From Gammaproteobacteria bacterium (GTDB lineage: Bacteria; Pseudomonadota; Gammaproteobacteria; Pseudomonadales; Azotimanducaceae), in assembly GCA_026707735.1 (NCBI GenBank), contig JAPOWH010000019.1, positions 238,470 through 302,469 of the forward strand: 64,000 nt of DNA. The letters are read 5' to 3'. Every line of letters begins with the position of its first letter. Within the stretch, counting starts at the first letter, position 1. Position numbers and translations under genes: made by a program. Under the pieces are notes generated by a model. That model ran no database searches. It had not been told where the DNA came from and saw only the letters and a program-made list of their open reading frames with translations. Positions 10,924 to 52,369 of the stretch are shown one piece after another.

Positions 10924-11126
10924 CAGAGCAGTTGAGGTGGATAGAACTCGTACACACAGTCAATTCGTGCACACCCGCTTCGGCCAACAAATAATCTTGC
11001 ACTGCGCACTTTGCAGTTCGTCACTTGAGCGCGATAATCGCCCCGTCCTGTGTCTATCTCTGTTTATAAACAACATTCAGCGGACTGAATAGAACGTCGT
11101 CGCGGTAGATTCAGAAGTTGCGACTT

Positions 11127-14057: not shown

Positions 14058-14189
14058 ATGAAGAGTCTGATGGTTCATTACACAACCACGTGCGTTCAAA
14101 GTTGCTGTGAAGCTCGAGATTTAGCTTTTTTGTGCATTGACATTAGCAAGTCTCTGGTTTTCTTGCGTATGTCTTCAAGAGGTATCTAG

Positions 14190-18280: not shown

Positions 18281-18352
18281 CCTGCTTTTGCATGCTCTGT
18301 GAGAGGCCACTCGTCTTCCTCTGCCAGTTCTCCATTTGTCTATACTTTTTTG

Positions 18353-18931
18353 GTGAACGACGCGACACGATCTGAAGTTGTCTCAAGCGACGACGAGCCT
18401 TTGATCCTCGTCGACACTGAGGACCGACAGATTGGAACTCTAGACAAAGCCGCCTGCCATGATGGACAAGGTAGGTTGCATCGTGCGTTCTCGCTTTTCG
18501 TCTTCAATCGGCACGGCGAAACCCTAATTCAACGCCGGCACTCGGACAAACGACTTTGGCCAGGATATTGGTCGAATGGTTGCTGCTCCCATCCGCGAAA
18601 TGGCGAAATTATCGAAGATGCCGTTGTACGTCGCGCTGAGCAGGAATTGGGACTTTCCGTGAATCCAGACTTTCTATTCAAATTTCGCTACAGGGCAACT
18701 TACTTAGCTATGGGGTCGGAGTTTGAACTCTGTTCTGTATTTGTGAGTCACACTGCGGATGAGCCGAACGTCAATGCGACTGAAATCGCAGAATGGCGGT
18801 GGGTAGCTCCCCACGACCTAGACAGAGAAATCGAGAATGACTCCATTACCTTTACTCCATGGTTGCAAATCGAATGGAAGCGGATGCGGACCGAATTTCT
18901 CAATGAAATCCAGTCTTTGGGAGCGGAATAG
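18353..18931 (+). CDS. idi: isopentenyl-diphosphate delta-isomerase, type I
   Basis: A 192-residue Nudix-fold enzyme that interconverts IPP and DMAPP in the cytosol. Motifs include LILVDTEDRQIG at the start, SLFVFNRHGETLIQRR, the catalytic cysteine region SNGCCSHP (C78 aligned with the E. coli catalytic Cys) and the late EIAEWRW motif with its catalytic Glu. The frame is open to a GTG at 18299; GTG at 18353 gives the normal family length, but neither start has a strong ribosome-binding site. First gene of the sterol operon, followed by HMG-CoA reductase-mevalonate kinase. A type I isomerase fits an organism using the mevalonate pathway. Confidence 0.92.
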   Translation: MNDATRSEVVSSDDEPLILVDTEDRQIGTLDKAACHDGQGRLHRAFSLFVFNRHGETLIQRRHSDKRLWPGYWSNGCCSHPRNGEIIEDAVVRRAEQELGLSVNPDFLFKFRYRATYLAMGSEFELCSVFVSHTADEPNVNATEIAEWRWVAPHDLDREIENDSITFTPWLQIEWKRMRTEFLNEIQSLGAE

Positions 18932-19059
18932 CAACACAAATCAATAGCTTATGCGGCCCGATGCAACGCGGCTGCAGATCAGTAGATACTTCGATTAACC
19001 AAGTAGAATGTGCATCGAAACGGCGTGTTGACGGATTGCACCCAAGGACGAATATCAGC

Positions 19060-21354
19060 ATGGCAGCAGATCCTGCATTTAATCAAAGCTCGCGAATCCC
19101 CAACTTCTTCAAGCTTGGAGTCAGTGCTCGAATTGAGGCGCTTCGTGCACACACCAACTTGACGGAGGAAGACCTCTTATCTCTCGAACACGGCTCTCAC
19201 ACACTGAAGTGCCACGTTGCTGACAAGATGATCGAGAACGTGGTCGGCGTGTTTGGCTTGCCGCTTGGTCTGGGGCTCAATTTTCTCGTCGACGGACGCG
19301 AAGTGATTGTTCCGCTCTCGGTTGAGGAACCGTCCATCGTTGCCGGTTTGTCTGGCGCTGCTCGGACGGCCCGTCTCTCAGGTGGCTACCGCACCGAAGT
19401 GTCGGACCCTGTTCTAATTGGCCAAGTGCAGATTGTGGACCTAGACGACGTTGAAGCTGCGAAAAAGGCGTTGCTCGATCATGAGGACGAAATTGTCAAT
19501 CTAGCGAATAGCTTGCATCCTAAGATGGTGGCTAGAGGCGGCGGGGCACAGAGCATTGAAGTGTTTCACCATCGAGCCCCCGAAGGCGGCGTTGACGGTG
19601 CGCCCCAACGCGACATGCTGGTGTTGCATTTGCTCGTCGACACCAGAGATGCGATGGGCGCAAATATAGTCAACAGCATGTGCGAAGGAGTGGCGAGCTT
19701 CATTGAGGGCATCGCAGGGGGTAGCGTCTTCTTGCGAATTCTTTCAAATTTGACTGATCGTGCTCTTGTTCGGGCGCGTGTCAACATCCCAGTCGAAAAT
19801 CTGACCATGAAAGGCTATTCCGGCGAGGAAGTACGCGACGGGATAGTGCTCGCCAACGACTTGGCCCTAGTCGATCCATACAGGGCTACCACGCACAACA
19901 AAGGCATCATGAATGGCGTAGACGCCATTGCAATCGCGACCGGCAATGACTTTCGAGCAATCGAGGCGGCGGCACACGCCTATGCGGCTAGAACCGGGCA
20001 CTATCGCGCACTGACTCGCTGGTACGTAGCCGACACCGGTGACTTGAGTGGGGAAATCGAAATGCCTATGAAAGTGGGCACGGTCGGCGGCTCGCTCGAG
20101 ACTAATCCATCGGTAGGTCTCAACCATCGTCTTCTGGGAAATCCAAATGCATCCGAGCTGGCCGGAATTATTGGAGCTGTAGGATTGGCGCAGAACTACG
20201 CTGCGTTGCGGTCATTGACTACCGCGGGAATCCAGCAAAATCACATGACGCTGCATGCACGCAGTGTTGCATCGACTGCAAACGTTCCAAGGGCAATTTT
20301 TGACGAGGTGGTTGATGCACTGATCGAAAGTGGCCAGATTAAAGTTTGGAATGCGGAGAGAATCGTTCGCCGAATGACGATGAAGCGAAGCGTTCAAATA
20401 GACGGGACCGAGCCTAGGAGTTCTGCATGTGGAAAGGTGATTCTCTTGGGTGAGCACGCCGTCGTCTACGGACGTTCCGCGTTGGCAGCTCCGGTTCCTT
20501 TGGCTGTGGAAGCTCGCGTTGTTGATGCCAAAAATGGTGTTGAGCTCCTAATTCCGCGCTGGGGAGTTGAACAGCGAATACCTCCCCTGAGCGAACATCC
20601 GGCAGGGGTTGCAGGCATCCTTGCACTCTTGCTGCAACGATTGGAACTCACCAATCGGTCGATGAAGATCGAAGTTTTTCCGAACGTGCCTCGAGCCGTC
20701 GGATTGGGCGGGTCTGCCGCCCTCGCCGTGAGCGTAATTCGAGCCTTTGACTCCCATTTCTCTTTGGGGCTCGATGACCGCCGCGTCAACGAATTCGCGT
20801 TCGATTGCGAGCGTTCTGCCCACGGCACGCCTTCTGGTGTGGACAACACGGTGGCCACCTACGGGAAGCCGATTCTGTTCCGCGGTCCAGGCGAGAATGG
20901 GCAGTCGTCGTTCGAGGATGTCCACTTGTCACGGCCTCTACCGCTGGTGGTTGCCAAAACCGGCAAAGAAAGTCTTACTGCCCGAACCGTGGCGCAAGTT
21001 GCCCGGTCTTGGCGTAGCAACAAAGCACGCTACGAGAGTGTCTTCGATCAGATTGACTTGTTGACACTGGCCGCTGTGGAGGCTTCTCGAGACGGAGCGT
21101 TCGATGAACTTGGCGAACTGATGAATCTTTGCCATGGGTTTCTCAACGCATTGCAGGTCTCAACGAGGGAGATTGAAGAGATCGTGGAAGTTGCACGTCG
21201 CCGCGGCGCAGTTGGCGCGAAGCTAACGGGAGGCGGGGGAGGCGGCTCGATAGTAGCGCTCTGCCCTGATGGATCAGATTCGGTGGTTTCGGGCATCGAG
21301 GCGATGGGCTACGAGGCATTCGCCTTTGAAGTTGGCTCTGTCGATGCGGCCTAG
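19060..21354 (+). CDS. HMG-CoA reductase (class II) fused to mevalonate kinase
   Basis: A 764-residue bifunctional protein. Residues about 10-430 are a class II HMG-CoA reductase: catalytic Glu in ENVVGVFG (E59), the DAMGAN motif (197-202) and the C-terminal catalytic His in LHARSVA (H399). Residues about 450-764 are a GHMP-family mevalonate kinase: GKVILLGEHAVVYG (from 458), the ATP loop GLGGSAAL (from 548), HGTPSGVDN and KLTGGGGGGS (from about 721). Together they convert HMG-CoA to mevalonate and then mevalonate-5-phosphate. The ATG at 19060 has AAGGA upstream; the frame is open to 18961. No stop or frameshift separates the halves. The fusion gives stoichiometric supply to the downstream sterol genes. 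Confidence 0.93.
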   Translation: MAADPAFNQSSRIPNFFKLGVSARIEALRAHTNLTEEDLLSLEHGSHTLKCHVADKMIENVVGVFGLPLGLGLNFLVDGREVIVPLSVEEPSIVAGLSGAARTARLSGGYRTEVSDPVLIGQVQIVDLDDVEAAKKALLDHEDEIVNLANSLHPKMVARGGGAQSIEVFHHRAPEGGVDGAPQRDMLVLHLLVDTRDAMGANIVNSMCEGVASFIEGIAGGSVFLRILSNLTDRALVRARVNIPVENLTMKGYSGEEVRDGIVLANDLALVDPYRATTHNKGIMNGVDAIAIATGNDFRAIEAAAHAYAARTGHYRALTRWYVADTGDLSGEIEMPMKVGTVGGSLETNPSVGLNHRLLGNPNASELAGIIGAVGLAQNYAALRSLTTAGIQQNHMTLHARSVASTANVPRAIFDEVVDALIESGQIKVWNAERIVRRMTMKRSVQIDGTEPRSSACGKVILLGEHAVVYGRSALAAPVPLAVEARVVDAKNGVELLIPRWGVEQRIPPLSEHPAGVAGILALLLQRLELTNRSMKIEVFPNVPRAVGLGGSAALAVSVIRAFDSHFSLGLDDRRVNEFAFDCERSAHGTPSGVDNTVATYGKPILFRGPGENGQSSFEDVHLSRPLPLVVAKTGKESLTARTVAQVARSWRSNKARYESVFDQIDLLTLAAVEASRDGAFDELGELMNLCHGFLNALQVSTREIEEIVEVARRRGAVGAKLTGGGGGGSIVALCPDGSDSVVSGIEAMGYEAFAFEVGSVDAA

Positions 21355-21408
21355 GCACGGCGACGCCACAATTTACCCAGGACTGAGCATCCGCAATTAG
21401 CGGCGCCC

Positions 21409-22557
21409 GTGGCAAACGAAGTCGATAAAGGAAGAGATTCAGGTTTGCGCGCTGCAGAATCCTCTGCGGCGCCTGTTCTTGTAACAGGGTCGTCAGGTCA
21501 TGTTGGCGCAAACCTCGTAAGTCGACTAGTTCATGATGGAGTTCGCGTGAGGGTGCTGTTGCAGAGGGACTGCAACAACGAGGCATTGGAAGGACTTGAG
21601 GTCGAACGGGTCTACGGTGACATTCGAGACCTTGACTCGACGCGACAAGCGCTTGACGGATGTCGGAATGTCTACCATTGCGCGGCAAAGATATCGACGA
21701 TTGACGGAAATCAAGTCCACAAGCGCGAGGTGTACGAGTGCAACGTTCTAGGGACGCGCAACGTACTCCAGGCAGCGCGCGAGACCGATGCGGGCAGGGT
21801 CGTGGTTACGGGATCCTTCAGTGCTGTGGGATACGATCTCGACGATCCCTCAGCCCCAAGCGACGAAACCATGCAGTTCTACCCCATGGAGCGAACCATG
21901 CCCTACGAGCGCAGCAAGGTTCTAGTAGAACACGAGTGTCTCAGGGCAGTTGCACTTGGTCAAGATGTCGTCATTGCGACATGCTGCGCGGTAGTCGGAG
22001 GAGCTGACTACCTGCCCTCGAGATTGGGCCGTACGCTTTGCCTGTACACCAGCGGAAAAGTTCGTGCATACGTGGATGGCGGATTTGCGTTCGTCGCGGC
22101 GCGGGATATAGTCGAGGGTCACCTGCTGTGCATGAGTCGCGGCAAGGCAGGCCAGAAGTACATTTTCGCAAGCGAGTACAAGACAATATCTGACATTTTG
22201 GACCTTTACGAGGAGGTGTCCGGCATACCACGTCCGAGACGCCGCATTCCTACACCTATCATGTACGTACTTTCAGAATTGGCGAGCTACTACTTGAGCC
22301 GATTTCATCCCGATTTTCCGCAACGCTTCACTCCGGGTGCCATTCGGTTACTCAAGAAGTGCCGGCACGCCAACATCGATAAGGCGAAACGCGAACTCGG
22401 TTATCAACCAACAAGCATTCGCGAGGCGGTCAAGGAGGCCTATGCGTTTCACTATGCTCGAGGCTCTATCACCAATCCGCGCGCGAAGCCGCCAGCGCCG
22501 CCATTCTCCTCTGTTCAGGATGAACCCACCATGGATGCAATCCCCACTCCATCATGA
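21409..22557 (+). CDS. sdmB: NAD(P)-dependent sterol dehydrogenase (3-beta-HSD / SdmB-like SDR)
   Basis: A 382-residue extended short-chain dehydrogenase. The cofactor loop is TGSSGHVG near residue 30 and the catalytic YxxxK is Y166-K170 (YERSK), with the preceding Ser motif VTGSFSAVG. The family includes sterol-4-alpha-carboxylate 3-dehydrogenases, and in Methylococcus the SdmB reductase works with the Rieske enzyme SdmA to remove a C-4 methyl group. Here the next gene is a Rieske oxygenase overlapping by ATGA (22554-22557), so I infer the same pairing: oxidation at C-3 with decarboxylation of the C-4 carboxylate. The GTG start follows the previous gene by 54 bp. The gene symbol is by analogy. 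Confidence 0.8.
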   Translation: MANEVDKGRDSGLRAAESSAAPVLVTGSSGHVGANLVSRLVHDGVRVRVLLQRDCNNEALEGLEVERVYGDIRDLDSTRQALDGCRNVYHCAAKISTIDGNQVHKREVYECNVLGTRNVLQAARETDAGRVVVTGSFSAVGYDLDDPSAPSDETMQFYPMERTMPYERSKVLVEHECLRAVALGQDVVIATCCAVVGGADYLPSRLGRTLCLYTSGKVRAYVDGGFAFVAARDIVEGHLLCMSRGKAGQKYIFASEYKTISDILDLYEEVSGIPRPRRRIPTPIMYVLSELASYYLSRFHPDFPQRFTPGAIRLLKKCRHANIDKAKRELGYQPTSIREAVKEAYAFHYARGSITNPRAKPPAPPFSSVQDEPTMDAIPTPS

Positions 22558-23654
22558 GCTTGAATTTGAACTCCCCACCCTCATTTGAAGACGCGAAGCG
22601 TTTGCGTCAGCAGGCACGTGCTACCGGTCTGGACCCGAATCACTGGTATGCCGTCGAAGAAGTGCGCAACATCAAACCGGAATCGGTCGTGGAGATAGTC
22701 TTCTGGAAGCACTCCATTGCGCTCTTTCGCACCAAATCCGGATCGTTCCATGCTGTTGAGAACCGCTGTGCCCACCGGCAGATAAAGCTCTCGCTGGGTA
22801 GCGTAGACGATTGTCGACTTGTGTGCGCGTATCACGGATGGCAATACGAGGGGGACGGTAAGTGCGTTGAGATTCCGCACGATAGATTCGGACGGGGCTT
22901 TCCCAAGCTCACTCTGCGTAAGTACCCGGTCAAGGTGCGATACGGGCTAGTCTGGCTATTTCCAGGCGACCTCGAAGAGGCGGAACGGCGACAGATTCCA
23001 GACATTCCGGAACTCGAGAGTGCGAAACCTTGGGCTTGCGTGCCACTGGTTTTCACTTGGGCGGCACACCATTCGATGGTGATTGACAATGTCAGCGACT
23101 TCACGCATGCTCACTTGCACAGACGCTACAAACCATTCGAAGGCGCCGATCTAACACGGTGCGAAACGATTAATGACAGTGTCCATGTCGCGTACGACTC
23201 ACAGGTTGGTCGAGGCCGCATATCTGGCCGGTTTGTCGAACATGACAAGATAGATACCAGCCACATAGAGCTTTGCTACGAGTATCCATACCAGTGGTCC
23301 AACACAGACGACTGGATCAAGCACTGGCTATTTGTGCTTCCAATCGACGAAAGGACAACCCGCTGTTTCTTCCTGTTCTATTTCAAGTCGCTGAAGATTC
23401 CGCTGTTGCCGGTACGAATTCCACGTTTCGCGATGAAAATGGTCATGACGGTTTCCAATCACTTTCTGATCGCCCCGCTGCTTGATCAGGACCGGTTTGC
23501 AGTCGAAGCGGAGCAGACGGCCTACGAGCAGCATTGGGATGCGCCTCCTGTAGAACTGAATCCCGCAGTGAATGCCTTCCAGACGCTAACTGTGCGAAAG
23601 TGGCGCGAATGCCTGGAGCGTGAAGAGAAGGCTGTACCGATCGCAAGATCCTGA
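22554..23654 (+). CDS. sdmA: Rieske non-heme iron oxygenase (SdmA-like sterol C-4 demethylase)
   Basis: A 366-residue oxygenase. The Rieske [2Fe-2S] ligands are C72-x-H74 and C91-x2-H94. The catalytic mononuclear iron site is D182, H185 and H189 in DNVSDFTHAHLH; the His-to-His spacing is one residue shorter than the usual D-x2-H-x4-H. Bacterial SdmA oxidises a sterol C-4 methyl to a carboxylate for the dehydrogenase to remove, and the ATGA overlap with the SDR gene supports that role. DAF-36-type sterol desaturases are a related alternative. No ferredoxin or reductase gene is in the operon, so electrons must come from elsewhere. Confidence 0.82.
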   Translation: MSLNLNSPPSFEDAKRLRQQARATGLDPNHWYAVEEVRNIKPESVVEIVFWKHSIALFRTKSGSFHAVENRCAHRQIKLSLGSVDDCRLVCAYHGWQYEGDGKCVEIPHDRFGRGFPKLTLRKYPVKVRYGLVWLFPGDLEEAERRQIPDIPELESAKPWACVPLVFTWAAHHSMVIDNVSDFTHAHLHRRYKPFEGADLTRCETINDSVHVAYDSQVGRGRISGRFVEHDKIDTSHIELCYEYPYQWSNTDDWIKHWLFVLPIDERTTRCFFLFYFKSLKIPLLPVRIPRFAMKMVMTVSNHFLIAPLLDQDRFAVEAEQTAYEQHWDAPPVELNPAVNAFQTLTVRKWRECLEREEKAVPIARS

Positions 23655-23666
23655 GGCCGGTGAGCA

Positions 23667-24734
23667 ATGCTATCTAGCAGCTCAGTCCTGCAATCGCTAG
23701 CGGCACTGCTTGGTTTCGTCGTCGCGCTGTTCATTGGATCCAAACTACTTCCTGGACGCCGAGTTGAGCTGAAGGACGACACAGGATCTCTCCGAGTCTT
23801 CAAGTTGAACGGACTTGTTCTGTTTCTTGCCACAGTCCTCGTAGTAGGCATTTGTCAGGTCATGGGGTGGTTTTCGCTCTCGTTCCTCTATAACCACTTT
23901 GTCGCTCTTTTCGTTTGGGCCAATGTACTTGCCTTTGCTCTTTCGGGTTGGCTATATTGGCGAGGCTCACGCGGTTCTGGCGAATCTAGGGGATTTTTGT
24001 ACGATTTTTTCTTCGGAAGGGACCTCAATCCTATGTTGTTTGGAGTTGATCTGAAGTTCTTCAGCTACCGACCGTCGTTGATCGCGCTTGCGCTGTTCAA
24101 CATATCGTTCGCCGTCGTGCAATTTGAAACCCAAGGGGAGCTATCCCCTGCCATGCTGCTTTATCAGGTTTTCACCTTTGTCTACGTATTCAACTATTTT
24201 CAGTTCGAATATGGGATGGTGCACACATGGGACATCGTGAGCGAACGTTTTGGATGGATGCTTGTGTGGGGAAACTTCGTGCTGGTGCCCTTCTTCTACT
24301 GCATTGCCGGATGGACATTGGTACACGCGGAAGGAGATCTTTCGCTACCTTTCGCAATAGCTTTAGTGTTGCTGTACTTGTTCGGTTTCTGGTTGTTTCG
24401 AGGTGCCAACGAGCAAAAGCATCGCTTCAAGCAGGATGAACACGTGAAGATTTGGGGACGGCCAGCGGAAACGCTGGACGGGCGTTTGCTGGTATCGGGA
24501 TTTTGGGGTATTGGCCGGCACCTCAACTACACAGGCGAGATTTGCGTGTATGTGGCGTTTGTTCTTACGGTTGGTTTCGAGTCCTGGATCCCCTACCTCT
24601 TGCTAGTCTGGCTAATCGGGTTGCTAGTGCACAGGTCATGGCGAGATGAGCGAAGATGCCGCGCCAAGTATGGCGAGCTCTGGGATCGGTACATGGAACG
24701 TGCGCGATTTTCGATGATTCCCTTCGTCCATTGA
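23667..24734 (+). CDS. sterol C-14 reductase (ERG24/DHCR-type membrane reductase)
   Basis: A 355-residue polytopic membrane protein with about nine hydrophobic segments. The C-terminal third has the ERG4/ERG24 family signatures: LLVSGFWGIGRHLNYTGE and the NADPH-site motif H-R-x2-R-D-E-x2-C-x2-KYG (HRSWRDERRCRAKYG) followed by W-x2-Y. These enzymes reduce sterol double bonds with NADPH. Position between C-4 demethylation genes and CYP51 points to delta14 reduction after 14-demethylation; delta7 or delta24 reduction cannot be excluded from sequence. GGTGAG precedes the ATG, 12 bp after the Rieske gene. Confidence 0.85.
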   Translation: MLSSSSVLQSLAALLGFVVALFIGSKLLPGRRVELKDDTGSLRVFKLNGLVLFLATVLVVGICQVMGWFSLSFLYNHFVALFVWANVLAFALSGWLYWRGSRGSGESRGFLYDFFFGRDLNPMLFGVDLKFFSYRPSLIALALFNISFAVVQFETQGELSPAMLLYQVFTFVYVFNYFQFEYGMVHTWDIVSERFGWMLVWGNFVLVPFFYCIAGWTLVHAEGDLSLPFAIALVLLYLFGFWLFRGANEQKHRFKQDEHVKIWGRPAETLDGRLLVSGFWGIGRHLNYTGEICVYVAFVLTVGFESWIPYLLLVWLIGLLVHRSWRDERRCRAKYGELWDRYMERARFSMIPFVH

Positions 24735-24742
24735 GAAGAACG

Positions 24743-26128
24743 ATGGCGGATCAGATTCACGACATAGACACCACGCGTCCAATTGACGGAGATAGGGTTC
24801 CTGAATTGGCCGGTGGATTGCCGCTACTTGGTCACCTAACCGAATTCCAGAAGGATCCGGTCGCTCTGCTGCTGCGCGGTTGCAGGGATCACGGCGACTT
24901 GTATCGCTTTCGAATCGGACCGTGCGACTTTGTTTTGTTCAGCGGGTTGGAAGCTCACGAGGCCTACTTCAAGGCTCCAGACGATCAACTTGATCCCAAG
25001 TCCGTATACCAGTTTACGGTTCCAATATTTGGGAAGGGAGTGGCATACGACGTCGCACCGGAAATCATGACCGAGCAGCTAGGGTTTCTCTTTCCAGCCC
25101 TGCGGGAATCCGCGATGCGGCGCTATGTCGCGATCATGTACGACGAAGCGAGTAGATTTGCAGATCGGATGGGCACAGAAGGCAAACTCGATCTTCCTGT
25201 GGCGATGAATGAGCTAACCGTGAATATCGCGAGTCGCTGCTTCTTGGGAGAGGAAATTCGGCAGGAGGTGGACGCCGAGTTTGCCGAGGCGTATCACGAA
25301 CTCCAAAATGGCATAAACACGATCGGCTTCTTCTTCCCCAGAATCCCGATTCCCGCACATAGGCGACGGGATAAGGCGCGAAGACAGATCACGGAGATCT
25401 TCACACGTGTGATGGCTGAGCATCGTGACATCGAGACCGAGTCCGAGAGCTTCATGCAAACGCTCATGAAAGCGCACTACAAAGATGGCCGGAAACTTAC
25501 CGTTGACGAGATTACTGGCATCTTGGTTACAGCACTGTTTGCTGGTCAGCACACTAGCGCAGTGCTCGCCACGTGGACGGGTCTAGAGCTGGCAAGGGAT
25601 GAAACCTACCTCAATCGGGTGAGGGAGGAGATGCAGGAAGTCTACAAGGAAGAAGGCGAGATGAGTCTCGCCGGTCTCAGACATCAGCAAGCACTGGAAA
25701 ACGCCGTGCGAGAATGCGAACGGCTGCATCCCCCGTTGATACTTCTCATCCGCAAAGTGATGAGGCCACTGAAGTATCGCAACCTTGTCGTTCCCGAAAA
25801 TACGATGGCGGTTGTTTCTCCCGCGGTATCGCATCGACTCGAGCACTTGTTTTCGGACCCGGATCGGTTCAATCCCGATCGGTTCATGTCTCCCCTAAAC
25901 GAAGACATGCAGGGATTGATCGGCTTCGGTGGTGGCAAGCACCGCTGCATGGGCAAGAACTTCGCCATTCTGCAGATCAAAGCGCTCTGGACCGCTCTGC
26001 TGGACCGGTTCGAATTCTCGCTCGACGCTCCATTTCCCTCTCCGAACTACGGCAGTTGGGTGACCGGACCGAGATTGCCCTGCCTATTGCAATACCGCAG
26101 TCGTTCGCCGCAAAGCGTCTTTCATTGA
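24743..26128 (+). CDS. cyp51: cytochrome P450 CYP51, sterol 14-alpha-demethylase
   Basis: A 461-residue soluble-type P450. The heme thiolate motif is FGGGKHRCMG with C402. The I-helix motif AGQHTS (267-272), with His before Thr, is diagnostic of CYP51, and the K-helix E-x2-R is E324-R327. The N-terminus lacks a membrane anchor, as in other bacterial CYP51s. The enzyme removes the 14-alpha methyl of lanosterol-type sterols in three oxidations. The start at 24743 avoids a long overlap with the reductase gene. No ferredoxin is fused, unlike the Methylococcus CYP51. The stop overlaps the next TTG start (TTGA). Confidence 0.94.
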   Translation: MADQIHDIDTTRPIDGDRVPELAGGLPLLGHLTEFQKDPVALLLRGCRDHGDLYRFRIGPCDFVLFSGLEAHEAYFKAPDDQLDPKSVYQFTVPIFGKGVAYDVAPEIMTEQLGFLFPALRESAMRRYVAIMYDEASRFADRMGTEGKLDLPVAMNELTVNIASRCFLGEEIRQEVDAEFAEAYHELQNGINTIGFFFPRIPIPAHRRRDKARRQITEIFTRVMAEHRDIETESESFMQTLMKAHYKDGRKLTVDEITGILVTALFAGQHTSAVLATWTGLELARDETYLNRVREEMQEVYKEEGEMSLAGLRHQQALENAVRECERLHPPLILLIRKVMRPLKYRNLVVPENTMAVVSPAVSHRLEHLFSDPDRFNPDRFMSPLNEDMQGLIGFGGGKHRCMGKNFAILQIKALWTALLDRFEFSLDAPFPSPNYGSWVTGPRLPCLLQYRSRSPQSVFH

Positions 26129-29100
26129 TCGACTCCACATCTACCAGCTACGATGTCGCCATCGTTGGCGCGGGGCCCGTCGGCAGCTTGTGCGCACTTG
26201 CACATGCCCGAAAGGGGGCTCGCGTTGCCCTGCTTGAAGCCAACCCGAAAGCTTCAACTCGTCTCGCAGGCGAGTGGCTGCATCCACCAGCAGTTCGCAT
26301 GTTGGAGGAGAACGGAATCTCCCTGAAAGCTTGTTTTCATAGCAGTCCAGGCAACGGTTTCGTGGTATTTCCTGAAGATCGCTCGGAGCCGATTCTGCTT
26401 CCCTACCAGAATGGAGCCATCGGCAAGACGTGCGAGCACTCCGCGCTTGTATCCACGCTTCACAAAGCCTTGGAAGACGAGCCGGAAGTGGATTTCTACG
26501 AAGGCGCGCGGGTGCGTGACGTCGAGAACGGAACTATTACCTTTTCTCTCGATGGCACACAGAATTCGCTTGCGACAGATAGGTTGATTGGCGCGGATGG
26601 CCGTGCGTCAATGGTTCGCAAATCACTAGGGCTTCCTGTTGAACGGGTTACGTGCTCGCGGATGATTGGGGTCGTCGCAGAGGGTGTCAGTCTTCCCTAC
26701 GAGGGTTACGGGCATGTGGTCCTCGGTGGACCGGGACCCGTTCTCATATTTCAGCTGGGAGAGAATAGGGTTCGCATTGTCGTTGACGTCCCACTGGATC
26801 ACTGGACTCCTCGAGATCGGATGGCGATGCTTACGGAGTCTTACGCCTATCTCTTGCCAGAAGCTGTCCGCCAACCATTTGTCTCGGAGCTTCGAGCTGG
26901 AAGGTTCCAAGCTGCAGGAAATGAGCTACTGCCCCGTACAACTTACGGAACCTCGCGGCGAGTGTTAATAGGCGATGCGGCAGGTCACTACCATCCCCTG
27001 ACGGCTGTTGGGATAACTCTCGGTTTCGGCGATGCATTGACTCTAGCCGCCACACCGGATTTTGGTGCGTTTGCCACCAAGCGATTGGAAGCCATTCGAA
27101 CTCCCGAGCGTCTTGCGCTCGGTCTCTACGAAGTCTTTGCCGACTACCGAGCCGAGGCGATTGCCGTGAGGCAGGCAACCTACCGTCGATGGCGGTCTAG
27201 CCCCAAGGTACGCAAGCAGACAATGGATCTTCTTGCCTGTGAAGACGTGTCACTCACTCGACTGGGATTGACGTTTTTCACAATCATGGCACAGGCCATA
27301 AAGAGCACTTTTCCAAGGTCGTTTGGTTCGGAAGCATGGCGTCGGGCTCGGGAGGTTTCCCAAGCGCTAGTGAGCCGCGTCGGGCACTTCTTGCGGAGTT
27401 TCCAATCGCTGAAGACCGAAGCCGTCAGCACAGCCCGCGAACAAAGCAAGCGGCTCTGGGATAGATGGTCACGCTCGTTGTTGACTTCCGTGCTACCGCA
27501 TGCGCACGAATCCCAAACAGCCAAACCAGAATTTTCTCTCGCCCCAGAAGGGACGGAGGAGGCCCTGCGCCGCGCAACAGAGCGGCTTTTAGTTCTGCAG
27601 GCAAAAGACGGAAGCTGGGAAGGTGAGATGGTTTGGTGTCCGATGCTCACTGCGCAATACGTACTGCTCAGCTACATTTTGGATGAGGAACTCGAACCAC
27701 AGCGCGTACGTCTCGTGTTGCGAAATTTCGAGCGCACTCAACTCGCGGAGGGCTTGTGGGGACTCCACGAGCACTCGCACCCATATCTGTTTGTTACAAC
27801 TCTTGTATACGTAGCAGCCCGCCTCCTCGGAGTCGACAAAGATGATCCACTCATCGCGAGGGCTGGCAGATTCGTTAGATCGGAGAGCGTGCTCGGCATA
27901 CCGAGTTGGGGGAAGTTCTGGCTGGCTCTCCTGAATCTGTTCGACTGCAAGGGACTACATCCCGTATTGCCGGAATTGTGGGTCTTTCCAACTTGGCACC
28001 CGCTGCATCCGTCGAAATGGTACTGTCATACGCGCCTCATATACATGTCGCTGGCCGTTGTCTACTCGAGTCGATTTCAGGCACCAGTGACTCCGCTGAT
28101 TGCGTCCCTGCGGAACGAACTTTTTGGAGATGACTTCGACGGAGTTGACTTTGCTTCTGCACGCATGCAGCTGCGCAAAGAGGATGTCTTCACGCTGCCG
28201 ACGGCTCGGTTGCGATGTGGCTATGCAATTGGCCGAATTATCGACCGATTCCATGGAAAGCGACTCCGACGCAAGTGCGTTCAGTCTCTGGTCGAGCGAA
28301 TTCGTTGGGAATTGCACAGCTCCGATCACACGAGCATCTCTCCCGTCAGCGGGTTTCTCAACATTCTTGCCCTGTGGCTGCATGATTCGCAGGATGACGA
28401 CTGTCGTAGAGCATTAGCTCAGATTGACGGGTGGATCTGGGAGGATGAAAAAGGCGGAACTCGGATTACAGGAGCGAGAAGCGTCTCTTGGGACACAGGC
28501 TTTGCCTTGCAGGCTTTGGCGGAGGCACCGGAGTCTGTTGAGACCAAGAAAGCCATCGAACTCGGAACGGATTTCCTGGTCAGCCAGCAAATACGCGAGA
28601 GTTTCGAGGGTTACGAATCCGCCTTTCGGAGCGATCCAAAAGGCGGTTGGTGCTTTGCTGGAATCTGGCACGGCTGGCCGGTTTCCGATTGCACAGCCGA
28701 AGCTCTTCATGGTCTGCTTGTAACACGGCCGGAGTCAATCGATTCGGAAGCGATCGCGGAAGCAGTCGGCTTTATGCTCCGAAGCCAGAACAAGGATGGA
28801 GGATTTGGAAGCTACGAAGCACGACGCTCGATGTTCACTCTTGAGTGGCTGAACCCAGCCGAAATGTTCGGCGAATCGATGACCGAGAAGTCCTACGTGG
28901 AATGTACGGCTTCGTGCCTCGCAGCACTTGCAAGCAGCAAGAAACACCTTGCCAACCTAGTTGACGAGCGGGTGGAAAACTCAATAGCTCGAGGCGAGTC
29001 TTGGCTTCGGCGGACTCAGCGAAGCGATGGGTCTTGGCGAGGAGTTTGGGGAGTGCAGTTCATATACGGGACTCTCTTCGGCATCAGAGGGCTTCGAGCC

Positions 29101-29505
29101 GCAGGGTGCAGCGCAAGCGACGCAGCTCTGCGACTAGGTTGCAGGTGGTTGCTGGAACGCCAGCGAGAAGACGGAGGTTGGGGCGAACACCACAGCGGCT
29201 GTCTGAGTGGTGAGTATGTTCCGCACAACGAGAGTCAAGTCATTCAGACTGCTTGGGCATTGATAGCACTTCTCGAAGCGGGCGAATCCAACTGGCAAGC
29301 AATTTCTCGGGGCGCAAAATTCCTGGCTGACAGCCAATTGGAAGACGGGACGTGGCCACGGCAGGACATGGCGGGCGTATTTTTCCGCACAGCGCTATTG
29401 GACTACGAACTCTATCGACAGTACTTTCCGCTGCATGCTCTTGGCTTGTTCGAACAGCGACGAGCCTCGCGCAAAGATGCATACGCAACTTCAGCAGGCA
29501 CATAG
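26125..29505 (+). CDS. squalene monooxygenase fused to oxidosqualene cyclase
   Basis: A 1126-residue fusion. Residues 1 to about 430 are a FAD monooxygenase: dinucleotide loop G15-x-G-x2-G20, and the second FAD motif GDAAGHYHPLTAVG (from 283) that matches squalene epoxidase more than other flavin hydroxylases. A basic helical linker (about 400-470) leads to a triterpene cyclase (about 472-1126) with QW repeats (QAKDGSW, QNKDGGFG, QRSDGSW, QREDGGWG) and the oxidosqualene cyclase motif DCTAE (855-859) rather than the DxDD of squalene-hopene cyclases. The residue two before it is Val (V853), as in lanosterol synthases. It would turn squalene into oxidosqualene and cyclise it. The TTG start at 26125 overlaps the CYP51 stop. 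Confidence 0.93.
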   Translation: MIDSTSTSYDVAIVGAGPVGSLCALAHARKGARVALLEANPKASTRLAGEWLHPPAVRMLEENGISLKACFHSSPGNGFVVFPEDRSEPILLPYQNGAIGKTCEHSALVSTLHKALEDEPEVDFYEGARVRDVENGTITFSLDGTQNSLATDRLIGADGRASMVRKSLGLPVERVTCSRMIGVVAEGVSLPYEGYGHVVLGGPGPVLIFQLGENRVRIVVDVPLDHWTPRDRMAMLTESYAYLLPEAVRQPFVSELRAGRFQAAGNELLPRTTYGTSRRVLIGDAAGHYHPLTAVGITLGFGDALTLAATPDFGAFATKRLEAIRTPERLALGLYEVFADYRAEAIAVRQATYRRWRSSPKVRKQTMDLLACEDVSLTRLGLTFFTIMAQAIKSTFPRSFGSEAWRRAREVSQALVSRVGHFLRSFQSLKTEAVSTAREQSKRLWDRWSRSLLTSVLPHAHESQTAKPEFSLAPEGTEEALRRATERLLVLQAKDGSWEGEMVWCPMLTAQYVLLSYILDEELEPQRVRLVLRNFERTQLAEGLWGLHEHSHPYLFVTTLVYVAARLLGVDKDDPLIARAGRFVRSESVLGIPSWGKFWLALLNLFDCKGLHPVLPELWVFPTWHPLHPSKWYCHTRLIYMSLAVVYSSRFQAPVTPLIASLRNELFGDDFDGVDFASARMQLRKEDVFTLPTARLRCGYAIGRIIDRFHGKRLRRKCVQSLVERIRWELHSSDHTSISPVSGFLNILALWLHDSQDDDCRRALAQIDGWIWEDEKGGTRITGARSVSWDTGFALQALAEAPESVETKKAIELGTDFLVSQQIRESFEGYESAFRSDPKGGWCFAGIWHGWPVSDCTAEALHGLLVTRPESIDSEAIAEAVGFMLRSQNKDGGFGSYEARRSMFTLEWLNPAEMFGESMTEKSYVECTASCLAALASSKKHLANLVDERVENSIARGESWLRRTQRSDGSWRGVWGVQFIYGTLFGIRGLRAAGCSASDAALRLGCRWLLERQREDGGWGEHHSGCLSGEYVPHNESQVIQTAWALIALLEAGESNWQAISRGAKFLADSQLEDGTWPRQDMAGVFFRTALLDYELYRQYFPLHALGLFEQRRASRKDAYATSAGT

Positions 29506-29506
29506 A

Positions 29507-29608
29507 AAACCTCTAGCTGGTCAGCGAGGAACCATCTACTCGCGAATGAAATTTCTTTACTCCTCAATAGATGGAGTGTGCATCAACTAACTTCTATGCG
29601 AGAGGTTT
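29507..29608. terminator. nested inverted repeats between convergent sterol operons
   Basis: Outer arms AAACCTCT (29507-29514) and AGAGGTTT (29601-29608) enclose inner arms CCATCTA (29532-29538) and TAGATGG (29568-29574). They sit between the ends of the plus-strand and minus-strand sterol operons, so a bidirectional termination role is possible. Loops are long and there is no T-run. Confidence 0.3.
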
Positions 29609-29621
29609 GGTTGCGATGGAA

Positions 29622-30365
29622 CTACGCCAGCACGCTGTAGTTGCCATCCGCGATTAATCGAATGGAGGTATAGAGCCCCAACAGAGGGAAGAGAACCCAA
29701 GGAGCATTGGTTCCCCATATATATAAGTACAAGTCCATTCGCGATATGGCCGCTTGGCGATTCGCCACGAAGAAACTGACCCAGTAGACGCTGGTCATGT
29801 AGACCCACTGCCAACAAAGAATCAGTCCAATCATTCCCGTTACGTAGGCGGGGAGAATATGGATTGTGATCGCGGCATATAGAAACAGAGTTGGGAGCAA
29901 CGTGAAGAAACCATTGGAGATGTCCACATTGAATCCAAATGTGCGACGATCTGCGAAAGACGGGTCGTATTGGGAGTAAGTAGCCCACACATCCGCCCAG
30001 AGCGATGGTGAGAAGACCCGTGTTAACGGAACTTTGGACGAAAAGAACTCGACATGGGGAAGCCGACCCGTCTGGGTTCGCCAATTGCGCCAATACTCGG
30101 TCCGTCTCTCGACGCGTGATCTTCGGAGGTACAAACACGTTTCCCAATAGCAAATCAGCACATTGATAGAAAAGAAGACGGAGAGAGCCCCATGGACGAG
30201 ACCGAGGTCCCCTTGAAGGTAATAGCGAGTTCCCAGACCGGCGCCAATCAAAACGCAGACGACTAGCGCAGCGAAGGACAACACCCGAATTTTCAGTTTG
30301 CTGCTGGAGTCGGTTTCCTGGTTTCCTTCCAATTCGAGATTAGCGTGCCTTGATTGTCGGTTCAC
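29622..30365 (-). CDS. EBP/EXPERA-like membrane protein, candidate delta8-delta7 sterol isomerase
   Basis: A 247-residue membrane protein with about five hydrophobic helices. Its key residues follow the emopamil-binding protein (EBP) spacing as I recall human EBP: E75 in helix 2 (EBP E80), W127-x2-Y130-x3-D134, then D148 exactly 14 residues later (EBP E122), and N220-x2-W223 with P227 (EBP N193, W196). Two deviations stand out: E122 is replaced by Asp, and the residue matching H76 is Ile. EBP moves the sterol double bond from C8 to C7. The GTG start overlaps the squalene synthase stop (GTGA), so it is translated with sterol genes. The fold is well supported by pattern; catalysis is inferred. 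Confidence 0.6.
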   Translation of the reverse strand: MNRQSRHANLELEGNQETDSSSKLKIRVLSFAALVVCVLIGAGLGTRYYLQGDLGLVHGALSVFFSINVLICYWETCLYLRRSRVERRTEYWRNWRTQTGRLPHVEFFSSKVPLTRVFSPSLWADVWATYSQYDPSFADRRTFGFNVDISNGFFTLLPTLFLYAAITIHILPAYVTGMIGLILCWQWVYMTSVYWVSFFVANRQAAISRMDLYLYIWGTNAPWVLFPLLGLYTSIRLIADGNYSVLA

Positions 30366-31444
30366 TTATGTGATTGGTGGATTCTTGTCTCGACTGCCGA
30401 TTTACTAGGCATCGCACGGTTGAACATCCAACGCAACGCCCAATTTGAGCGAATAGCAACACTAACTGCCGCGACCAAGCTGTAAACCTGTCCACGTGAA
30501 ATCTTCACTTCACTCCCATTGCGAAAATTGGGATTTGAGTGAATTCGGCGGTAAGTCAAGCACGCGAATGCAAGGGTCCATGCTAGGAACCGGCGAATGC
30601 CTGTCTCGTGGGATGGAATGACGTGGATGTAACGGAGACTCTTTTCTAGGCAACCTCGTACGACACCTAGAAGATGAACAACCTTCAATTCCGTAGATTC
30701 GGCTTCCTGCATTGAGGATGGAAGAGCTTCGGCCGGTCCATAGGAAATTGTTCGAGGTAGCCAGCATTTGCCATGGAGTATGTCCTCCCTGTGGTCTTTC
30801 AGGATATTTATGAGTTGTAGTCCAAGACCGAACTCGGTCGCCAAAGTTAGAAGTTCGTCGCGGCGAGCGGCGATTTCAACGGAATAGGTGCAGAGTACTT
30901 CGGTGATCATTTCGCCCACTACGCCCGCCACAAAATAGCAGTAACGCTCAACCTGAGCCACGTCTTGCAGTCCATCGGAACCTGTACTGACGAACTCTGA
31001 CATTCCCTGGCACATGATTTTGATGCATCTATCGATCGGAGCGCTTTTGGCACTTGGCAATTGCCGATGAAAATCTACAACGAGACGCGTGTTCACCACG
31101 AGATCTCTCTCATCGCTGTTCGTCCCATCAGACAACTTTGGAACAAGGTCCTCTGCAAAGGAATCTGCCGACTCGTTGTGAGCTACCACACGGGCAAATC
31201 TGCTTAGGAAACGCCGTTTGGTCTGTATGTCGAGATCCGGCGAATCTTCAATCGTGTCCGCAATTCGACATAGCAGGTAGACGTTACCAATAACGAAGCG
31301 TATTTCTTCAGGCAATTGTGGGATTGTCAATGCAAATGTCCGCGATACTCGGCTGAGTGCGTAAGTCTGAAACTCAAGCACTGAGTCCTTCGCGGACTGT
31401 TCGGACCGTGGGATTCGATCGCGCGATGTAGCTTTGTCGGTCAC
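30362..31444 (-). CDS. squalene synthase
   Basis: A 360-residue trans-isoprenyl diphosphate synthase of the squalene/phytoene class. The first Asp-rich motif is D63-T-I-E-D67, the second N213-ILKD-x2-ED (D217, E220, D221), with SRTFALTIPQLP before them and the squalene-synthase motif YCYFVAGVVGEMIT (168-181) between. The C-terminus is hydrophobic and may associate with membrane. It condenses two farnesyl-PP to squalene with NADPH. The single-gene form resembles sterol-type squalene synthase rather than the HpnCDE route. GTG start. It feeds the squalene monooxygenase-cyclase encoded convergently. Confidence 0.93.
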   Translation of the reverse strand: MTDKATSRDRIPRSEQSAKDSVLEFQTYALSRVSRTFALTIPQLPEEIRFVIGNVYLLCRIADTIEDSPDLDIQTKRRFLSRFARVVAHNESADSFAEDLVPKLSDGTNSDERDLVVNTRLVVDFHRQLPSAKSAPIDRCIKIMCQGMSEFVSTGSDGLQDVAQVERYCYFVAGVVGEMITEVLCTYSVEIAARRDELLTLATEFGLGLQLINILKDHREDILHGKCWLPRTISYGPAEALPSSMQEAESTELKVVHLLGVVRGCLEKSLRYIHVIPSHETGIRRFLAWTLAFACLTYRRIHSNPNFRNGSEVKISRGQVYSLVAAVSVAIRSNWALRWMFNRAMPSKSAVETRIHQSHK

Positions 31445-31736
31445 GCTACACGACTTTCATTCGTTCCAAAGCATGCAAAGGAAACGACCCCCAACCTAAC
31501 AAGCCCATTTGAAGTTGAAAATGGTACTACAACTACCGTACAAAATTCGACGACCGCGGTCTGACCTCCTTTCACTATTGGGGTCAGTAGAACTGCCACG
31601 AAAGCAAATTGTCGGTGCAATTGGTGGGTGGGCCTAGAGAAGCTCCATTTCCATCGGGAGCCGCCAAGCGAATTGCACTAGCGAATAGGATCAGCTGAAC
31701 TCGGCGAATAGACCGGGTTCGATCTAACGAGATTTC

Positions 31737-32732
31737 CTATTGTGGCTTGCGAGCGTGGACCAGGAAACTTGGCGTAAAGATGCCCAGCTTGCCCGCTTCG
31801 ACCAGGGCGTCTGCTGCGGCATTCAAGAGTCGGGATGCCTCGGAGACGCCTGCGGGGACTACTTTTATCCTTTCCAACATGCCAGTAGTCTTCGCAATGA
31901 CCGCCCGTCCCATTGGCGTGCGTGCAAACGAGGACAGGGAAATGTCTCTCCCTTGTAGTGCCATGTACCACGGAGTCGAAGGGTCACCTTCTACTGCTTG
32001 CTGGTCTTTTGCCTCAATGACCTCGAATCCCGCGGCTTGCACTGTTTCGATGTACTTTCCTGTAGTCGAAAGATTGGGTGTCGCGTTGTTGTGCTCGATT
32101 TGAGCTTTGATTTCGTTGTGCTTGCTGTTGGAGCGGTCGAAATCGTCTGTGAGAGTCCAGTCGATAATGGCGGCTTCGGCGCCAGGTTTCAGCAATCGAA
32201 AGAGCTCGCGAAACGCCATGTCCCTATCGGGTGCGTGGCAGATTGCTTCGATTGAATACATGGCATCAAATGTGGCTTCGTTGTACGGTACGTCCATAAA
32301 GTCTGCGTACAAGAAGGAACACGACTCAAGCAGTCCTGCTTTCCGCACCAAGTCTCTCCCTCGCCGAAGCTGCTGCATATTGATGTTGATTCCCACGATG
32401 CGGGCACCTGTAGCCTTGGCGATATTGATTAGCGGCCCGCCAACTCCGCACCCGATGTCTGCCACTTCCATTTTTGGACCAAGACGCAGGAGTTTGCCGA
32501 TTCCTTCGTTGTGACGGCGGAGAGACTTTGGCAGGCTCTCTCCTGGACGCCGAGGGGCGAAGTGAAATGTTGGACCCCATCCAAACTCGTAGAACGAAGT
32601 GACAGCGTCGTAGTAGCTGCTGACAAGCCGCGGCTGCTCACGAATCCGAATGGTGTCGTCGCTCGAAAGCTCTGTAACTTGCCGGAAGTCTCGGAAGTTC
32701 TGCACGGCCTCTTTTAACTTGTTTCCGCTCAA
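31737..32732 (-). CDS. smt: sterol 24-C-methyltransferase
   Basis: A 331-residue SAM-dependent methyltransferase of the ERG6/SMT family. Sterol-binding region I (YYDAVTSFYEFGWGPTFHF, 40-58) matches the SMT signature Y-E-x-GWG-x2-FHF, the SAM motif is DIGCGVGGP (92-100), region III is SIEAICHAPD, and the C-terminal SMT domain ends AGKLGIFTPSFLVHARKP. It adds methyl from SAM to C-24 of a sterol side chain that has a delta24 bond. The TTG start is supported by AGGA 7 bases upstream. It heads the minus-strand sterol group, with 292 bp without a recognised gene before squalene synthase. Confidence 0.93.
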   Translation of the reverse strand: MSGNKLKEAVQNFRDFRQVTELSSDDTIRIREQPRLVSSYYDAVTSFYEFGWGPTFHFAPRRPGESLPKSLRRHNEGIGKLLRLGPKMEVADIGCGVGGPLINIAKATGARIVGININMQQLRRGRDLVRKAGLLESCSFLYADFMDVPYNEATFDAMYSIEAICHAPDRDMAFRELFRLLKPGAEAAIIDWTLTDDFDRSNSKHNEIKAQIEHNNATPNLSTTGKYIETVQAAGFEVIEAKDQQAVEGDPSTPWYMALQGRDISLSSFARTPMGRAVIAKTTGMLERIKVVPAGVSEASRLLNAAADALVEAGKLGIFTPSFLVHARKPQ

Positions 32733-33523: not shown

Positions 33524-34945
33524 CTACACCAACCCTCTGCGCTCCTCAAGCTGTGCCCGGACTTCGTACGCCTTCGATTCTGTGATGCTGTAGCGAGCAA
33601 TCAAAAGGATCGCCAAGAGCGACAAGACAACCGGAACCACGACGTCGTAGACACGCATCAAAAATAACGTCTGCTCAGATTGATTGCCTTCGAGTGCGAC
33701 ATCGAACCCCGTTGCATTGAGAAGATAGCCACTTCCAAGCAATGCCGCCGCCATTCCAAGCTTGACCATGAACCAAAAAATTGAACCATACATGCCCTCG
33801 CGACGCTGTCCAGTGTTTAGTTCATCGACGTCGCACACATCCGCAATCATCGAAGCCATCAAAGTGAAGAGTGAACCTAGCCCGAATGCTATTAGAGGTG
33901 CGCAGATCAACAGGAGATACGGGTACTCTGGGTTGTAGCAAATCCATTTGAGTCCATAGCCGATTGCAGAAATGGTTATGCAAATAGCGAAAGTCTTTCG
34001 CTTCCCTATGCGGGATCCCAGATAGGTTGTCAACGCAATAACGAGAAACGTCGCGATTGAAGAAATGACGCCGAAAATCAGTATGAGATTGGCTGCAGCA
34101 TCGGTATCTCCCGCATAAAGGTAGAAGACAGTGACGTAAAACTGAAATGCCGCAATGAGTTGAAACCCGTTGAAGACGAGGAACGTCGCTCCAGCGAGCA
34201 TCAGGAAATCCCTATTGGCGATCGTTGTGCCAAAGCCTCTTAGGAAACCGAAGATTTGTGTGCTGATCGATACAGAGTTTTCACTGGAGCTGCCCTTTCC
34301 AAACCGTTCTCGCAGCGCCAACGCTGGAACAATTCCGAACGCAATGCAACCGACCGCGACGACTATCGCCAAGATTGACGCTCCGTTGCCCAACCCTCCG
34401 AATTGGTCTAGTTCCATGAATTTCAAGAAGGCGGGGGAGATTACGTAAGCCAACTGGCCGATGATGTTCTGCACGCCCATGAGTCGGGTTCGTTCGTGAT
34501 AGTCCGGAGTCAGTTCATAGCCCAGCGCCACCCACGGAGTTGCGAACACGGTGTATGCCAAGTAGAAGAACAGCGATACGAGAAGGAAATACCAAAAGTA
34601 GTAGCCCTCTGATCGACCCTCCGGCAATTGCCATAGCACGATGAAGATCAAACCTGCAGCGAATACACCGCCAAACATGTAGGGCCTTCGACGCCCCCAG
34701 CGAGATCTTGTGTTGTCCGAGATGTAGCCCATGATAGGGTCGGTCCAGGCGTCCATCAGACGCGGAATCCCACTCAACCAACCGACGAGCGCCGGGTTCA
34801 TTCCAAATGCGAGGTTGAGAACCACCATCATGCTCCCGCTGGCAGCAGCAAGCATGTTGTTCGCAAACGCACCGCATCCGTATGCGATCTTCTTCTCGAA
34901 CGGAATTCGGTCTGCGGGGTTAGTTACATGGTGGCGTTCCGTCAT
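33524..34945 (-). CDS. GPH-family (MelB-like) sugar:cation symporter
   Basis: A 473-residue inner-membrane transporter with about 12 helices. The N-terminus (KIAYGCGAFANNM) and the motif D-x2-TDPIMGYISDNTRSRWGRRRPYM mark the glycoside-pentoside-hexuronide symporter family; the Asp residues of the TDP motif normally bind the cation. It imports sugars or short oligosaccharides. It is the last gene of the glycoside-use operon and overlaps the preceding hydrolase gene by ATGA (34942-34945), so its substrate is probably the product of the GH3 and TIM-barrel enzymes. Confidence 0.88.
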   Translation of the reverse strand: MTERHHVTNPADRIPFEKKIAYGCGAFANNMLAAASGSMMVVLNLAFGMNPALVGWLSGIPRLMDAWTDPIMGYISDNTRSRWGRRRPYMFGGVFAAGLIFIVLWQLPEGRSEGYYFWYFLLVSLFFYLAYTVFATPWVALGYELTPDYHERTRLMGVQNIIGQLAYVISPAFLKFMELDQFGGLGNGASILAIVVAVGCIAFGIVPALALRERFGKGSSSENSVSISTQIFGFLRGFGTTIANRDFLMLAGATFLVFNGFQLIAAFQFYVTVFYLYAGDTDAAANLILIFGVISSIATFLVIALTTYLGSRIGKRKTFAICITISAIGYGLKWICYNPEYPYLLLICAPLIAFGLGSLFTLMASMIADVCDVDELNTGQRREGMYGSIFWFMVKLGMAAALLGSGYLLNATGFDVALEGNQSEQTLFLMRVYDVVVPVVLSLLAILLIARYSITESKAYEVRAQLEERRGLV

Positions 34946-39253: not shown

Positions 39254-39260
39254 TCAAAAG

Positions 39261-39275
39261 AGTGCTTGCAGCACT
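39261..39275. promoter_or_regulatory. palindrome just upstream of lacI-family gene
   Basis: A perfect inverted repeat AGTGCT-TGC-AGCACT ends 8 bp before the regulator's ATG, in the 73-bp gap after the receptor gene. It could be an operator for autoregulation, or part of a weak terminator that reduces transcription from the receptor gene into the rest of the operon. Confidence 0.35.
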
Positions 39276-39326
39276 TCCTCAACTGCTATTTTCCTTCCTC
39301 AAAATGGTTTCAACCGAAAAGACTTT

Positions 39327-42044: not shown

Positions 42045-42089
42045 TTCCCTGTCAGACAAAGTGTTTGAAAAGGGGTTTATAACCATTTA

Positions 42090-52335: not shown

Positions 52336-52369
52336 ACTCCAGCAGGTTAATCCTGCAATCAGAAGCGAA

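Follow-up and report, generated by a model that had tools for sequence, protein, structure and literature searches.

A probable bacterial sterol biosynthesis cluster with an EBP-fold membrane protein in a gammaproteobacterial genome

Gene content of the locus

The window analyzed here, a stretch of 64,000 nucleotides from contig JAPOWH010000019.1 of the gammaproteobacterial assembly GCA_026707735.1, includes ten genes for relatives of isoprenoid and sterol enzymes within about 14 kb. The list of open reading frames (ORFs) places seven of them on the plus strand and three on the minus strand (Table 1). Scans against Pfam and NCBIfam gave family support at E 0.001 for nine of the ten, and all ten lie at about the places and on the strands proposed in an earlier note, which had been prepared from the letters of the DNA alone. 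The gene set, its order and two gene fusions are established by the sequence.

Table 1. Genes of the sterol cluster in the window, with the matches that support each assignment.
Gene product	Coordinates	Strand	Evidence
Idi, type 1 isopentenyl-diphosphate isomerase (NUDIX)	18299..18931	+	NF002995 178 bits (cut-off 127); TIGR02150 147.5 (cut-off 105.8)
HMG-CoA reductase (degradative/class II type)-mevalonate kinase fusion (HMGR-MK), 764 aa	19060..21354	+	TIGR00532 385 bits (cut-off 260) and TIGR00549 232 (cut-off 163) in the same ORF
SdmB-like/MsbA-like NAD(P)-dependent short-chain dehydrogenase/reductase (SDR), predicted C-4 decarboxylase-reductase	21409..22557	+	top NCBIfam model SdmB NF052578; weaker matches include PF01073 3Beta_HSD
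SdmA-like/MsbB-like Rieske oxygenase, predicted C-4 methyl oxidation	22554..23654	+	top NCBIfam model SdmA NF052579; PF00355 Rieske
Sterol C-14 reductase, ERG24/MsbC type	23667..24734	+	PF01222 236.5 bits; closest solved relative 4quv, Delta(14)-sterol reductase, E 1.3e-68
CYP51 sterol 14alpha-demethylase, 461 aa	24743..26128	+	CYP51 chains head the PDB list (6mcw E 2.5e-106); YQFTVPIFGKGVAYD motif
Squalene monooxygenase-oxidosqualene cyclase fusion (SMO-OSC), 1126 aa, TTG start	26125..29505	+	PF08491, PF13249 and PF13243 over cut-off
Membrane protein with EBP fold, predicted to isomerise a sterol double bond; family unnamed	29622..30365	-	
Squalene synthase	30362..31444	-	PF00494 142 bits; PDB 3wcb ('Farnesyltransferase, putative') E 1.9e-17, then squalene synthases from E 6e-13
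Sterol C-24 methyltransferase (SMT)	31737..32732	-	PF08498 Sterol_MT_C 69 bits (cut-off 21.7) and methyltransferase domain; FYEFGWGPTFHF in translation

The gene limits were roughly as claimed, with corrections to the starts of Idi (18299), HMGR-MK (likely 19060), CYP51 (likely 24743) and SMO-OSC (a TTG at 26125). The long ORF of the HMGR-MK gene opens at 18961, but the start at 19060 is the likeliest because the listed relatives measure 748–784 aa. The likeliest CYP51 start is an ATG located 8 bp past the reductase stop; therefore, the overlap of these two genes is confined to the long CYP51 ORF. Of the overlapping starts and stops claimed for the locus, three are true 4-bp overlaps: SdmB/SdmA (ATGA, 22554-22557), CYP51/SMO-OSC (TTGA, 26125-26128) and squalene synthase/EBP-like (GTGA, 30362-30365).

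The SMO-OSC gene is a single ORF with the squalene epoxidase domain and both cyclase Pfam domains, and the 120 listed of its 1255 homologues have 1065–1186 aa and cover 94–100% of the window protein. The best PDB match of the cyclase part was human lanosterol synthase (1w6k, E 9.4e-130), while the best hopene cyclase (SHC) reached 1.2e-47. As in 1w6k, a Val stands two residues ahead of the Asp of the DCTAE motif, at what we take to be position 453. The cyclase MsbE of a sponge symbiont is described as carrying a 'key valine' (PMC7074536). The model TIGR01787 scored over its cut-off and TIGR03463 under its own (724 of 851 bits), and all of 40 cyclase ORFs carry HGWPV, with the window and repeat fetches of genomes among the 40. 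In a tree of 31 cyclase rows, in which the groups were assigned by hand according to record titles and some rows share a genome, the window protein grouped with five other gammaproteobacteria (SH-aLRT 99). The gammaproteobacterial cyclases are not one clade, since three label changes are needed for them; all groups together need 5 label changes against a minimum possible of 4. The fusion was rejected as a novelty because it is mentioned in PMC10070321 and described in PMC7074536.

The squalene synthase scored below the cut-off of TIGR01559 (109 of 287 bits) and over that of PF00494. Its nearest PDB chains were 3wcb and 3wca, followed by squalene synthases, all with modest scores. The SMT passed the PF08498 cut-off, and its FYEFGWGPTFHF segment is presumably the sterol-binding region. 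For SMTs of such clusters in vitro activity is published: 8 of 10 from sponge symbionts and 12 of 14 from environmental bacteria were active (PMC10070321).

Host genome and isoprenoid supply

The window lies on one contig (C9) of a 3.37-Mb assembly of 29 contigs that is 95.8% complete and 0.04% contaminated. Together with the Pfam, NCBIfam and PDB matches, the quality of this genome and the clusters found in its congeners support the earlier claim of a sterol biosynthesis locus in a bacterium. In congener G260 (locus L133) the ten genes are identical in kind, order and strands, and because of this repetition the arrangement is not due to chance. Seven genes were found in G157 (L134), namely SdmB, SdmA, the reductase, CYP51, SMO-OSC, the EBP-like gene and squalene synthase, on a contig that starts just ahead of SdmB. 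Congener G105 (L135) has six, the same set minus the EBP-like gene, which, like HMGR-MK, is found on other contigs. The earlier note had named a eukaryotic or chimeric contig as one finding that would refute it. Nothing in favour of this explanation was found, and it was ruled out: bacterial genes flank the locus in family scans of the window ORFs, contamination is 0.04%, and the full cluster recurs in G260 and its core in G157 and G105. We give it practically no credence.

Across the 390 genomes of the order, a strong cyclase match (E < 1e-200) was detected in 4, all of which also encode an EBP-like protein; the latter is present in 9. The four are the genome of the window and three others of its genus, and thus represent one lineage. 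At E 0.001 cyclase matches rose to 30 of the 390 genomes, the best after the strong four reaching 2.1e-67 and none scoring over the family's own cut-off.

The position of Idi and HMGR-MK upstream would couple the cluster to isoprenoid supply. Further mevalonate genes are found on contig C12, where a diphosphomevalonate decarboxylase (MVD) gene over cut-off adjoins a phosphomevalonate-kinase-like gene under it (83 bits, cut-off 166). No match to Dxr, the one gene of the methylerythritol phosphate pathway searched, was found in the genome of the window, nor was HMG-CoA synthase matched there with either of its domains. A divergent HMG-CoA synthase may have been missed, since the PF08540 (HMGS-C) matches, seen in 8 of 31 genomes of the family, are weak (best 46 bits). 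The view that the sterols are made from one locus is therefore not quite right: the phosphomevalonate-kinase-like and MVD genes are on another contig and no HMG-CoA synthase was found. The HMGR-MK fusion was considered as a sterol-specific novelty and rejected. Both Pfam parts are present in the 120 listed of its 6885 homologues (own copy included), and 18 of the 31 family genomes have a match, in 15 of them one near-full-length match. Being so widespread, the fusion is a general trait of the group.

Other sterol steps were sought elsewhere in the genome. No C-5 desaturase was identified in a search with PF04116, the only one made for it. Neither of the two PF04116 proteins was kept as a candidate: OlsE is the nearest match of the first and a weak match of the second, both under cut-off. 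A second protein of the ERG4/ERG24 family (C8:18928-19998, L088), 33% identical to the cluster reductase and encoded next to an ion-channel gene, could be a further sterol reductase, e.g., for side-chain reduction.

Proposed route and the EBP-fold protein

The P450 sequence was closest to solved CYP51s in the PDB search. Phe occupies the position associated with C-4 preference in 32 of 33 CYP51 ORFs, and in the remaining one (L149) the motif could not be located; the window itself is among the 33, and some genomes were fetched more than once. The closest solved CYP51, 6mcw, which we take to be the Methylococcus enzyme, has Ile there. In published work Ile at this position admits C-4-dimethyl substrates and Phe favours C-4-monomethyl ones (PMC2850312). 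Since Phe has this preference elsewhere, one C-4 methyl is predicted to be lost ahead of the C-14 methyl. This order is extrapolated from trypanosome enzymes, and the residue makes it directly testable.

The SdmA-like and SdmB-like proteins scored 406 and 296 bits against NCBIfam equivalog cut-offs of 600, and for this reason the Rieske and SDR proteins are named only as 'like'. C-4 demethylation by the pair is predicted from homology to SdmA and SdmB. It may be partial or complete: both proteins are under the cut-offs, and the published SdmAB pairs strip one, two or no methyls depending on the species (PMC10202945). Of the C-4/C-14-demethylated, C-24-methylated sterols that the earlier note expected, the C-14 demethylation and the C-24 methylation are well supported by the families of the enzymes, and the C-4 part is predicted by homology with both genes under cut-off.

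We consider it probable that the locus is a bacterial sterol cluster of the msb/CSG kind, likely leading from farnesyl diphosphate through lanosterol to a C-14/C-4-demethylated, C-24-methylated sterol, with the EBP-fold protein likely shifting a ring double bond. In this scheme squalene synthase would join two farnesyl diphosphates, and the SMO-cyclase fusion would epoxidise squalene and then fold it to lanosterol. The SMT would add one carbon at C-24 and the SdmA/SdmB-like enzymes would remove at least one C-4 methyl. CYP51 would then take the C-14 methyl and the ERG24-type reductase would saturate the C-14 double bond, so that the order resembles that of plants. In a last step the EBP-fold protein would move the Delta8 double bond, most likely to Delta7. 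The expected product is a Delta7 (or Delta8) sterol of the 24-methylene type.

Alternatively, the cluster could make the sterol core of a glycosylated compound such as a sarasinoside-like saponin, with the 4,4-dimethyl group kept and the SDR/Rieske pair oxidising another position, e.g., C-23. The closest published locus, msbA-F, was assigned to the sarasinoside core, and MsbA and MsbB were proposed to produce its C-23 oxo group (Mohanty et al., PMC7074536). Nonetheless, the curated models that fit the pair best, though under cut-off, are SdmB and SdmA, the CYP51 Phe fits C-4-monomethyl substrates, and no glycosyltransferase was found in a scan of 20 other ORFs of the window, the only part of the genome in which one was sought. 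We hold a saponin core to be an improbable product.

The EBP-like call is the weakest of the ten. The protein has no Pfam match at E 0.001, scores 10.4 of the 25.7 bits required by PF05241 (EBP/EXPERA), and retrieved no EBP from single-sequence or profile searches of the PDB. Within the family, PF05241 matched 36 of 60 members at E values up to 10 (best 0.0064), and the next family, DUF1673, matched 8 of 60 (best 0.0012). An hhalign comparison with EBP gave a probability of 2%, its short alignment pairing Asn and Trp with N193 and W196. What supports the call is the predicted fold, which matches that of human EBP, a 3beta-hydroxysteroid Delta8,Delta7-isomerase. The identity to the human protein (6oht, 8w0r) is 14%. 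MAFFT paired EBP Asn193 and Trp196, both in the ligand site, Trp101 and Tyr104 with N220, W223, W127 and Y130, which are conserved in 204, 208, 207 and 208 of 208 family members, respectively. The presumed equivalences of E75 to Glu80 and D148 to Glu122 are drawn from conservation and ungapped spacing from W127, because MAFFT placed Glu80 on Ser and Glu122 on Pro. E75 is kept in 207 of 208 members. If it corresponds to Glu80, about 30 extra residues separate its helix from the WxxY helix, and the place of His76, four residues ahead of Glu80, is taken by Ile, Val, Ala or Leu in all 208. The MAFFT alignment set His76, the first residue of the fragment used, on H58 instead (His in 178 of 208), an alignment in which Glu80 meets a Ser. 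Human His76 has no clear counterpart.

Two other roles were weighed for this protein. It is a tenable, if less than even, possibility that it is not the pathway isomerase and that it binds sterols, as a carrier like TMEM97, or modifies those of a host, as an isomerase of sponge sterols. Against this, EBP scored 4.6 Z units above sigma-2 in the fold comparison, the residues aligned with EBP W101, Y104, N193 and W196 are almost invariant, and the gene overlaps that of squalene synthase. It may also be an isomerase whose product is a different one, such as a Delta8(14) sterol or a rearranged skeleton, since the lack of a clear His and the Asp that, by spacing, replaces Glu122 suggest altered proton handling. 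EBP-like isomerases also act at branch points of plant pathways. Branch-point isomerases with skeletal-rearrangement chemistry are reported from plants (PMC9999417). No direct evidence points to a different product here, and we regard this option as unlikely.

A genome scan for the EBP-like protein returned 224 encoding stretches, of which the best 80 were taken as loci; by record title they span at least nine phyla. Many of the loci are from bins named jk18, a series to which an Ircinia genome of PMC9531527 also belongs. By tblastn, a cyclase match lies beside the EBP-like gene in 20 of the 80, at gaps of 29–3890 bp (median 1243). Among the other 60, an SMT or ERG24 homologue was present in 15 and none of six sterol queries matched at E 1e-20 in 45, many of which are truncated by contig ends. 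Clustering of the neighbours of the cyclase-less genes was set aside in favour of these tblastn counts because antisense ORFs were mixed in. An SMO-OSC profile was searched in 49 genomes of the loci without an adjacent cyclase: 31 matched at E 0.001, mostly weakly, and 12 fell below 1e-200, including one with the SMO part only (466 positions) and one with the match in two frames. Since a cyclase adjoins in 20 of 80 loci and 37 of these 49 genomes have no match below 1e-200, the family is tied to sterol genes without being confined to producers. Its spread in genomes that lack a strong cyclase match suggests that associated bacteria modify sterols. Tentatively, and at somewhat less than even confidence, we propose that bacteria of at least nine phyla handle sterols with a so far overlooked branch of the EBP sterol-isomerase superfamily, one that seems to lack the canonical catalytic His. 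This branch would act inside de novo clusters of plant order, with C-4 before C-14, and also in cyclase-less bacteria that would remodel sponge sterols, and it would supply the nuclear double-bond step that is still missing from the bacterial synthesis of 24-alkylated sterols.

The genome of the window has a second EBP-like copy (C17:19327-20010; L100, L132). No other sterol query matched in its 3.7-kb locus (L100), and the gene ahead of it appears by eye to encode a gamma-glutamyltranspeptidase. In eight Dadabacteria loci (L008, L009, L011, L013, L015, L021, L027, L065) the EBP-like gene is near ThiD-type and FolD-type genes; the SMO-OSC had no match in the seven Dadabacteria genomes searched (1.6–1.8 Mb), that of L011 not being among them.

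The rest of the window encodes other functions. A ligand-gated ion channel-like protein (6453-7466, plus strand) resembles a bacterial glutamate receptor channel in that its solute-binding domain (28-336) spans an Ion_trans_2 pore domain (131-209). Three tandem paralogues of 579–651 aa follow (8968-16022, plus strand), with 25–30% pairwise identity and, by eye, an N-terminal hydrophobic stretch. A sugar-use cluster on the minus strand (33524-42086) comprises an MFS transporter, a glycosidase-like protein, a GH3 enzyme, a LacI regulator and a TonB receptor. Two adjacent AcrB-family (RND) pump genes (49171-55435, plus strand) come after an HlyD-type gene at 47897, and a 1144-aa protein (60524-63958, minus strand) has no Pfam match at E 0.001.

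Comparison with published sterol clusters

Steranes alkylated at C-24 are interpreted as biomarkers of eukaryotes and sponges. A nearly complete bacterial route that includes the supply genes bears on that reading. The rarity of bacterial sterol synthesis implied by the earlier note is dated: a Melophlus symbiont has the cluster type (PMC7074536), as do 115 of 537 metagenome-assembled genomes from Ircinia in ten phyla, where the term is clusters of steroid genes, or CSGs (PMC9531527), and bacterial cholesterol has been reported (PMC10202945).

In the window, SDR, Rieske, ERG24, CYP51 and (SMO)OSC follow one another on one strand in the msb/CSG order, and SMT and squalene synthase are both downstream on the opposite strand. 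The msb locus of the gammaproteobacterial symbiont of Melophlus sarasinorum (Mohanty et al. 2020, PMC7074536) is alike in the overlapping msbA oxidoreductase and msbB Rieske genes, the msbC sterol reductase, the msbD C-14 demethylase, the bifunctional squalene epoxidase-cyclase msbE and the SMT msbF. It differs in that its squalene synthase is on a separate scaffold and its flanks are described as unlike sterol genes, while Idi, HMGR-MK, squalene synthase and the EBP-fold gene adjoin in the window; the likeness to that locus (MT026193.1) is drawn from its published description. The Ircinia clusters (Kelly et al. 2022, PMC9531527) share the ERG24-CYP51-LSS core, an upstream 'DFR' and hypothetical protein, and a downstream SMT or FDFT1 on the opposite strand. 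In the accessible text of that paper ERG2 is noted in several clusters, SdmA and SdmB are not annotated, and no EBP-type protein or mevalonate genes are named. The metagenomic clusters in which Brown et al. 2023 (PMC10070321) found functional SMTs are alike in combining an SMT with sdmA/sdmB and a cyclase, and fused SMO/OSC homologues are mentioned; the main text of that paper names no isomerase, erg2 or ebp. SdmA and SdmB of Methylococcus capsulatus and Calothrix (PMC10202945) provide the best curated models for the window pair, whose scores reach roughly two thirds of the cut-off for SdmA and one half for SdmB.

By title or abstract start, no description of a bacterial EBP-type family was found in the openly accessible literature. 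The EBP-fold family ties a concrete gene to a step left unnamed for such clusters in the accessible parts of the bacterial sterol papers. Clusters of this type have already been described from sponge symbionts; what is new, within the openly accessible literature, is the family with the EBP fold, the reading of the CYP51 residue as a clue to the pathway, and the joined mevalonate head.
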